Position numbers and translations under genes: made by a program
Source of the DNA: Acidobacteriota bacterium
Lineage (GTDB): Bacteria; Acidobacteriota; Thermoanaerobaculia; Multivoradales; Multivoraceae
Direction of reading: 5' to 3'
NCBI GenBank assembly: GCA_029263415.1
Contig: JAJCXN010000048.1
Span: 325,169-389,168 of the forward strand
DNA: 64,000 bases
The notes under the pieces: generated by a model
What the model was told of the DNA's origin: nothing
The model's database searches: none
Seen by the model: only the letters and a program-made list of their open reading frames with translations
Shown here: positions 18,603 to 19,766 of the stretch, one piece after another
Layout: each line of letters opens with the position of its first letter
Numbering within the stretch: the stretch's first letter is position 1

Positions 18603-19766
18603 ATGCTCCGTTTCGCACCCCTCCTTATACTGCTAGCCCTGGGCTGTTCCATGACCAACGACGGTTTGCAGCTTCCGGCCGGCTTGGAGCCGCTCGCGGA
18701 ACGCGCGGCGGCCGCGCCTAAAGTTGGCGAGCAGTTTCCCGACATCACAATCGTGGATGCCGAGGGCCAGCCGGTCAATGTCAGGTCACTGGCGAGCGAG
18801 AAACCGTACACGGTGCTAACGCTCGGGTGCCTTACGTGACCGCCATTCTTGCGCAACGTCCCCAGTTGGGAGACGGTCAAACTCGACTATGCCGCGAAGG
18901 GCGTTCAGTTCTTCTACATCTACAAGCCGCTCGCTCATCCTGAACTCGACAACTACGTCAGCCCGTTCACTCTCGCCGAGCGGCTGATGCACGTTGCCGA
19001 GGCTGAGAGACGACTGGGGTCCAGCGTGACCTGGTTGGCCGACACAATGAGCAACGACTACCATGAAGCTGTGGGGCGCACGCCAAACAGTGAGTTCGTG
19101 CTCGACCAGGCCGGGATGGTCATCGCGCGTCGCATCTGGAGTTCGCCAGAAGACCTCAGAGAGGACCTAGCGGGTCTGCTCGGACCCGTGGAGCCGCCGA
19201 CCAGTGTCGATGACTTGGACCTCCCTGAGCAAGACGCCATCTCCACCGTTGCCAAAGGCATCGTTCCGCGAGTGGAGATGCCTGCGGGTGCGCTGCCGCT
19301 TGAAATCGAACCGCTTGCGAGCGAAATCCCGTTCTACGCCAAGCTTCGTGCCGAAGGTACCCAGGGCCTTTTCGAGGACGGGACAGGCACGCTCTATCTA
19401 GGCTTTCACCTCGATCCGCTCTACCAGGTCCACTGGAACAACGACGTCGACCCGGTGTCGTACAAGATCCGGGCCCCGGAGGGAGTGGTAGTCACGCCCG
19501 CCGAAGGCACTGCCATCGATCCAGAGGAAGCGGCGGACGCCGATCCACGTGAGTTCTTAGTAGACGTCGCAGGCGGTCAAGGTCAGGTGCTGGACGTCAA
19601 CGTGCGCTACTTTGCATGCGACGACGCGTTGACCTTTTGCATCCCAGTGCAACAGGACTACAAGGTCCATCTAGAGCGAGACTGGAACCACGACTGGAGC
19701 ATCCGCACCGACGCCGAGGGGCAGTGGAAACTCGCGATCCCCGGTGCGCCGACCGACGACAGCTGA
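18603..19766 (+). CDS. deiodinase/thioredoxin-like lipoprotein, probable selenoprotein (Sec at codon 79, TGA)
   Basis: This is a single frame of 388 codons interrupted only by TGA at 18837-18839. Residues 1-15 (MLRFAPLLILLALGC) are a lipoprotein signal with Cys15. Around the TGA the frame reads TVLTLGC-L-T-[TGA]-PPFLRNVPSW, then VQFFYIYKPLAHPE. This is the active-site context of iodothyronine deiodinases and related thioredoxin-fold proteins, where Sec (or Cys) stands just before P-P-F and a (Y/F)-I-(Y)-x-x-x-A-H-P strand follows. Cys76 and Sec79 form a CxxU redox pair. A bacterial SECIS-like hairpin lies 24 bases beyond the TGA. The C-terminal 190 residues resemble the DsbD N-terminal domain (NVRYFACDDALTFCIPVQQ, Cys-x6-Cys). 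Probable role: extracytoplasmic thiol or dehalogenating redox enzyme. Without recoding, it would stop at 78 residues. Confidence 0.85.
18837..18875 (+). promoter_or_regulatory. selenocysteine codon and SECIS-like hairpin
   Basis: TGA at 18837-18839 is followed by the hairpin 18857-18875: CGTC (18857-18860) pairs with GACG (18872-18875), CCC (18861-18863) with GGG (18868-18870), with A18871 bulged and the tetraloop AGTT at 18864-18867. The loop starts 25 bases after the TGA and has G at its second position. Bacterial SECIS elements recognised by SelB have a short apical loop with G in the first two positions, about 16-37 bases after the UGA, often with a bulge in the stem. All these criteria are met. 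Confidence 0.8.

Follow-up and report, generated by a model that had tools for sequence, protein, structure and literature searches.

A predicted exported selenoprotein of an Acidobacteriota bacterium joins a deiodinase-like C-x-x-Sec domain to a DsbD_N-like domain

Deiodinase-like selenoproteins of bacteria have been known since 2005 from the Sargasso Sea, where they were assigned to PF00837, and the passages that describe them also give the rule for bacterial SECIS elements, namely a hairpin with a small loop holding a G, situated shortly past the UGA (PMC1088965). More recently, the family section of a 2026 inventory covering 119 families or subfamilies gave the deiodinase-like family the motif UxxC and named no second domain for it (PMC13188914). 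Relatives with a different active site or domain layout bear on the role of deiodinase-like proteins in organisms where thyroid hormone is absent.

Here, we analyse a gene located in a stretch of 64,000 nucleotides from an Acidobacteriota genome (the window). In our judgement it is highly probable, taking the explanation as a whole, that this gene encodes an exported selenoprotein with a deiodinase-like and a DsbD_N-like domain, which would act as a selenium-dependent thiol:disulfide oxidoreductase. The reading frame consists of 388 codons, final stop counted, and its sole internal stop is the TGA of codon 79. A preliminary description made from the letters of the sequence had placed this TGA in the context GCLT-[TGA]-PPF, which is exact on re-reading. 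The GC3 value is 0.744 before the TGA and 0.744 after it, as compared with 0.678 and 0.417 for the two other frames after the TGA. In a listing of open reading frames of at least 80 aa, the sole part of the frame that appears is a 305-aa piece starting at TTG 18849, and ordinary ORF calling would therefore lose the active site. The same description had expected annotation to split the gene into two broken ones; the upstream product of 78 residues, being below the length limit, is not listed at all. Ordinary annotation can easily overlook members of this family, since the cut in the gene falls at the active site. The features of the locus are collected in Table 1.

Table 1. Features of the selenoprotein gene, with positions in the window
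Feature	Start	End	Strand	Basis
Selenoprotein coding frame, 387 residues, Sec79 read through	18603	19766	+	TGA at this codon in 18 rows including the window
Putative signal peptide, lipobox-like LLALGC, Cys15 as candidate lipid anchor	18603	18647	+	Sequence; lipobox-like motif
Thioredoxin-fold deiodinase-like domain, residues 38-195	18714	19187	+	Pfam, model, fold matches
Active site Cys76-Leu-Thr-Sec79 (C-x-x-Sec)	18828	18839	+	Same in 24 rows save Sec/Cys exchange; Asp at both positions in 8
TGA read as selenocysteine (almost certainly), codon 79	18837	18839	+	Conserved TGA; Sec/Cys exchange in relatives
SECIS-like hairpin, AGTT loop at 18864-18867, G at loop position 2	18857	18875	+	Synonymous resampling, gene scan
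DsbD_N-like beta-sandwich domain, residues 222-362	19266	19688	+	Pfam DsbD_N, model, fold matches
Second Cys pair, Cys339-X6-Cys346	19617	19640	+	23/23 scorable C-x-x-[U/C] rows, 0/8 Asp rows

The active-site codon could be compared among 32 long-type relatives covering it, the window included. It is TGA in 18 of them, Cys in 6 and Asp in 8, and Sec/Cys exchange at codon 79, for which the preliminary description had recommended looking, is thus observed together with a third, Asp form. The 18 Sec rows come from 16 genomes, carry GCLTU at the same place in each and are 46-76% identical to the window protein. In the window's family (24 genomes), matches at E<=1e-6 were found in three: the window itself, L025 (with TGA, 74% identity to the window protein) and L026, which is shorter. 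In the phylum (396 genomes), 23 genomes gave matches at E<=1e-15, including 12 long-type rows with an active-site TGA from 10 genomes; the other matches were L043 and L044, L045, and a shorter group. L043 and L044, in which the active-site stretch is missing, were left uncounted, and L045 was treated separately as an outlier. Three rows are incomplete (L040, L042 and L057), and L057 has an additional TAA upstream in its frame. A scan of genome contigs yielded six further relatives, with the TGA kept in five (L027-L031) and Cys in one (L032, which is the same gene as L071 and was counted once); these are labelled Planctomycetes (two), Verrucomicrobia or Opitutales (three) and Gammaproteobacteria (one). 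The closest named relative (L027, 68% identity) is the one in the MAG labelled Gammaproteobacteria, which reflects either a label error or gene transfer.

Matches at E<=1e-30 were present in 10 of 387 genomes of the phylum of L032. They correspond to 14 proteins with no internal stop, six with GCLTCP and eight with GDLTD; in the latter, the positions of Cys76 and Sec79 are both occupied by Asp. Tree building with 41 rows placed the Cys proteins and the Asp proteins together in a supported clade (95/88), within which the Asp proteins are one clade (100/100) and the Cys proteins receive 83/77; the Sec rows are unresolved as a clade (45/0). The tree fits a loss of Sec in one line, a direction that its topology is compatible with and does not prove.

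Several relatives differ from the window protein outside the active site. The frames of the Asp forms (L076-L080, L082-L084) measure 734-848 aa and have a long and repetitive N-terminal region in front; these forms are probably non-redox descendants. Three Cys forms (L073-L075) have a different N-terminal part of ~450 aa and C-terminal stretches that look EF-hand-like by eye; such tails were also seen by eye in L028, L031 and L032. The shorter group of the same phylum (L026, L046-L051, L054, L060-L062) consists of deiodinase-like selenoproteins with FG[SA]xTU and predicted downstream hairpins. Three of these (L048-L050) read UPYC or UPFC, which is the UxxC motif of the published deiodinase-like family, and a TAG also occurs within the match in L047 and L051. 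The outlier L045 contains G-C-T-U (GGCTU, with Cys at -2 and thus a deiodinase-1-like spacing), a Glu two residues before the His and a C-terminal Cys pair, and it may link the long and the shorter groups. Finally, the window's own genome encodes a second deiodinase-like protein (L002, contig C37:61149-61691), a Cys form (FGSHSCPVY) with an EAHP motif and without the C-terminal domain.

At the N-terminus of the window protein, residues 10-15 read LLALGC, which is lipobox-like. The protein is probably exported and lipid-anchored, in keeping with its initial designation as a lipoprotein. The region that follows matches Pfam Redoxin above the cut-off and T4_deiodinase just below it (25.3 bits for a cut-off of 27); T4_deiodinase was found at E<=1 in 8/8 members of the first trimmed alignment, and both Redoxin and AhpC-TSA matches occur in the family. 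An AlphaFold model of the whole protein, built with 19 rows, has a pLDDT of 84.1. When the N-terminal domain of this model was compared with solved structures by VIA-align, the best matches were mouse Dio2 (Z 18.0, rmsd 2.7 over 160) and Dio3 (Z 17.5, rmsd 4.8 over 169), followed by ResA (14.9), with Prx folds at Z about 14. Foldseek, used with the whole model, ranked DipZ C-terminal regions first, then ResA-type proteins and Dio3, and a profile match to Dio3 was obtained with an E value of 7.7e-7.

The C-terminal half holds another domain, which carries a separate Cys pair; this feature is absent from the preliminary description. At E<=0.1, 13 of 18 members match Pfam DsbD_N (PF11412), with a best value of 3.3e-6, the window's own match being weak (E 0.056, 13.9 bits for a cut-off of 25). 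Modelled alone, this domain forms an Ig-like sandwich (pLDDT 91.8). Against PDB sequences, the C-terminal profile gave no match at E<=1, and the domain model gave no Foldseek match at E<=0.001. By structural alignment, DsbD-alpha was found with Z 7.4 (1vrs) and 7.0 (1jpe), and adaptin ear domains also scored 7-8. As the fold match to DsbD-alpha is tied with the adaptin ears, the link with the DsbD family rests on the Pfam DsbD_N matches and the Cys pair. Both C-terminal Cys are present in all 23 scorable rows that have Cys76 and Sec or Cys at position 79, L042 being unscored since its C-terminal Cys region cannot be aligned, and both pairs are gone in 8/8 Asp rows. Joint presence and joint loss would be expected if the two centres work as partners, and this co-occurrence suggests a two-site thiol relay; the joint loss may represent one event, the Asp rows being one clade.

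A DsbD_N-like domain with a Cys pair points to thiol:disulfide chemistry, and the protein is probably an enzyme of this redox type, as far as its residues and domains can tell. A peroxidase of the peroxiredoxin or glutathione peroxidase type, with Sec79 as the peroxidatic residue, would account for the Redoxin and AhpC-TSA matches and for the Prx folds, and the relevant part of the 2026 inventory includes bacterial Prx and GPx-like families with Sec (PMC13188914). However, the Prx motif given there is TxxU, whereas C-x-x-U is found here in 18/18 Sec rows, and the Cys at -3 is identical in 24/24 non-Asp rows, as in thioredoxin-type centres. We consider a peroxidase unlikely for these reasons.

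The resemblance to deiodinases raises the alternative of a true reductive dehalogenase, in which Sec79 would remove a halogen from an aromatic compound as in the animal enzymes. Besides the nearest solved folds and the Dio3 profile match, this reading is favoured by residues that the passages of PMC11592359 and PMC9141512 name for deiodinases, since Thr78, Sec79, Tyr107, His112 and Pro113 of the window protein correspond to Thr129, Sec130, Tyr157, His162 and Pro163 of Dio2. However, the proton-relay set (Dio2 Ser127, Thr129, Tyr157, Glu160, His162 and His182) is incomplete. Ser127 is replaced by Cys76 and Glu160 by Leu110, a position that is Leu in 32/32 rows (L045 uncounted), and Dio2 Trp167 and His182 have no partner, both falling in gaps of the profile alignment; three Cys-form rows have a Trp four residues past the His. 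Moreover, the proximal Cys at -2 of Dio1 and Dio3 is absent, Leu77 occupying this place and the Cys standing at -3. In Dio1, the Cys at -2 is required for glutathione reduction, according to the passage on this residue (PMC11592359 / PMC9141512); Dio2 itself is without it. No halogen-related Pfam family was found among 8 neighbours of the window gene and 10 neighbours of its relatives, some of which match no family. After this comparison of residues, a deiodinase by function was dropped as the leading reading, and dehalogenation appears very unlikely. Of the initial proposal of a deiodinase-like and possibly dehalogenating protein, the likeness in fold and sequence therefore stands, while C-x-x-Sec, the Leu in place of Glu160 and the unmatched Trp167 and His182 speak against the activity.

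Counting from the TGA, the hairpin CGTCCCC-AGTT-GGG-A-GACG starts at the 18th base downstream and its AGTT loop at the 25th, and these distances, as well as the bulge, agree with those first described; the stem of the window has a bulged A, or one mismatch in the common register. The window gene thus has a downstream hairpin with a small loop containing a G, as the bacterial rule demands. Among 17 distinct Sec rows, pairing holds in 88.2% of the pair cells, compared with 32-54% when the partner was slid and 87.5% when partners were shuffled among sequences, the latter value being near the observed one because most columns hardly vary. Covariation was no better than in the controls, its score being reached in 245/500 shuffles. 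There is one double compensatory change (in L031) in 119 pair cells; sliding the structure by +1 gave more double changes (5 cells), yet just 42% pairing. One pair position is unpaired in 9/17 rows, including the window. Classical covariation was dropped as a proof of the SECIS element, because the columns vary too little and the observed values are no better than those of the shuffle.

Since covariation was uninformative, we used a synonymous-codon test and a scan of the gene. In the former, the codons of each gene were redrawn among synonyms at the gene's own usage. Over seven pairs in 17 Sec rows, 105/119 pair cells are paired as compared with 72.9±4.2 expected, a value that none of 5000 resamplings reached. 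The summed hairpin energy is -131.8 (expected -46.2±8.8), with 0/1000 resamplings as low, and the loop G occurs in 17/17 rows (expected 12.0±1.3), with 3/5000 resamplings as high. The same energy test over 780 windows of the aligned gene (60 draws per window, windows with at least 14 rows) gave a peak z of -10.3 at the hairpin, the strongest value elsewhere being -4.9. Both analyses used 17 of the 18 Sec rows, omitting L037, whose hairpin stretch is identical to that of L035, and the scan also omitted the Cys form L032. Resampling treats related sequences as independent; the gene scan is a guard against this, although it shares the same relatedness. The hairpin is kept beyond protein-coding need.

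The window's genome (6.9 Mb, 60 contigs, 99.2% complete, 0.31% contaminated) was searched for the Sec machinery, and all four of selA, selB, selC and selD were found. The tRNA-Sec scores 71.1 bits in Rfam (cut-off 47) and has the anticodon TCA according to ARAGORN, which identifies a second Rfam match over the cut-off as tRNA-Ser. SelA (457.7 bits) and SelB (329 bits) are each over their cut-offs, as is SelD, which was matched in two pieces of one 833-aa frame (249.2 bits summed). This selD frame (L021/L022, contig C23:163515-164576) far exceeds the 311 positions of the model and probably represents a fusion, perhaps of the NADH dehydrogenase-SelD kind described in the corresponding passage of PMC2398784. 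Among the 16 Sec-form genomes, tRNA-Sec was found in 12 (E<=1e-9), selB over the cut-off in 13 and at least one of the two in 15. No tRNA-Sec was detected in four, including G278 (72% complete), where selB was not over the cut-off either. The tRNA-Sec scan for the Cys and Asp forms covered 12 genomes, two of which are Sec-form; it was found in 0/10 Cys/Asp-form genomes, whose completeness is not stated, versus 12/16 Sec-form genomes. This correlation is an agreement and no independent test, the groups being related. Fourteen related genomes without a family match, chosen as controls, all have tRNA-Sec and selB, indicating that the machinery serves other proteins too.

The TGA of codon 79 is almost certainly a selenocysteine codon, and we have hardly any doubt that Sec would be inserted there, as initially proposed; the complete machinery, the conserved TGA, the Sec/Cys exchange and the selected SECIS-like hairpin back this claim. 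Readings of the TGA as a genuine stop, a result of faulty sequencing or the sign of a pseudogene are scarcely credible and were dropped, for although the standard ORF listing ends at this codon, the same TGA recurs in 18 rows from 16 genomes with the frames open and the protein conserved downstream, GC3 is unchanged across it, the hairpin is under selection and the Sec machinery is complete.

On these grounds, a mechanism can be proposed for the selenium-dependent thiol relay. SelB carrying Sec-tRNA-Sec, bound to the hairpin just past the UGA, would insert Sec79. The mature protein would then combine the thioredoxin domain, with Cys76-x-x-Sec79, and the DsbD_N-like domain, with Cys339/Cys346. 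Most likely, Sec79 would react with an oxidised thiol-type substrate outside the cytoplasm, and Cys76 would resolve the product as a selenenyl-sulfide with Sec79. The Cys339/Cys346 pair would in turn exchange electrons with the Cys76-Sec79 centre, both relay stations being in one chain. We give such a relay between the two domains an even chance. The full picture, a single-chain extracytoplasmic relay in which Sec drives substrate reduction at a deiodinase-type site without dehalogenation, with the two pairs lost together in one clade, is more tentative. The neighbours scanned (8 beside the window gene, 10 from L027-L031) indicate no redox partner; those of the window and of L027-L031 share no family but protein kinase (window and L031), which is a common one, and several are unmatched.

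The bacterial selenoproteome thereby gains a Sec family that is well supported and has an architecture of its own, in which a deiodinase-type fold carries a C-x-x-Sec centre of the thioredoxin type and is fused to a domain of the DsbD type. As Sec, Cys and Asp forms occur as a natural series in one family, the part played by each redox pair can be tested directly.

Each of the known systems resembles the window protein in part. It shares with Dio1-3 a thioredoxin-fold domain, the T-Sec-P site, and Tyr and His-Pro after strand 2. However, Dio1 and Dio3 have S-C-T-Sec and Dio2 S-A-T-Sec instead of C-x-x-Sec, and the window protein differs by its second domain, its bacterial origin and the hairpin inside the gene. 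With DsbD-alpha it has in common the DsbD_N matches (13/18), a Cys pair near the C-terminal strands and a fold Z of about 7, but here the domain is fused behind a Sec thioredoxin domain, the fold match is not above that of other Ig-like folds, and the membrane part of DsbD is absent from the chain. The C-terminal region of DipZ, which is laid out as a thioredoxin domain plus a second domain, accounts for the top six Foldseek rows of the whole model (2hyx, 5cyy; E 3.9e-11 to 4.5e-10); however, the TM-scores are just 0.32-0.40 over both domains, DipZ is outside the best 50 VIA-align rows and it is without Sec. Oxidoreductases of the ResA/TlpA type share the thioredoxin fold (Z 14.9) and have a C-x-x-C centre, whereas the window protein has Sec at the second position, a deiodinase-like loop and the extra domain. 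Part of the plant 'quenching protein' 7djl (Arabidopsis SOQ1) matches the C-terminal domain (Z 7.4 over 98 residues); SOQ1 has a thioredoxin-like domain and an additional NHL domain, and no Sec.

Among selenoproteins, a published Redoxin-type protein (pfam08534) fused to a Cys-bearing domain offers a similar layout; as described in the passage concerned, it has UxxC, and CxxC in the added domain, and is set apart by this description from the CxxU and CX6C of the window protein. In NCBIfam, the window protein has a single match at E<=0.1, NF038285 (deiodinase_rel; E 2.5e-11), with 43.7 bits for a cut-off of 250; the shorter relative L026 scores higher, at 169.8 bits, and is also below. No deiodinase-like C-x-x-Sec/DsbD_N-like fusion occurs in the article texts and passages searched, nor in the family passages considered from the 2026 inventory (PMC13188914). 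The deiodinase-like selenoproteins of the Sargasso Sea type share with the present family the Pfam relation, a bacterial SECIS element and the occurrence of Sec and Cys forms, as far as the passages on them go (PMC1088965, PMC13188914). The window protein departs from the UxxC family of the inventory section in having C-x-x-Sec together with a DsbD_N-like domain. Its own family is small and is a variant of the bacterial deiodinase-like selenoproteins, new within the literature searched.
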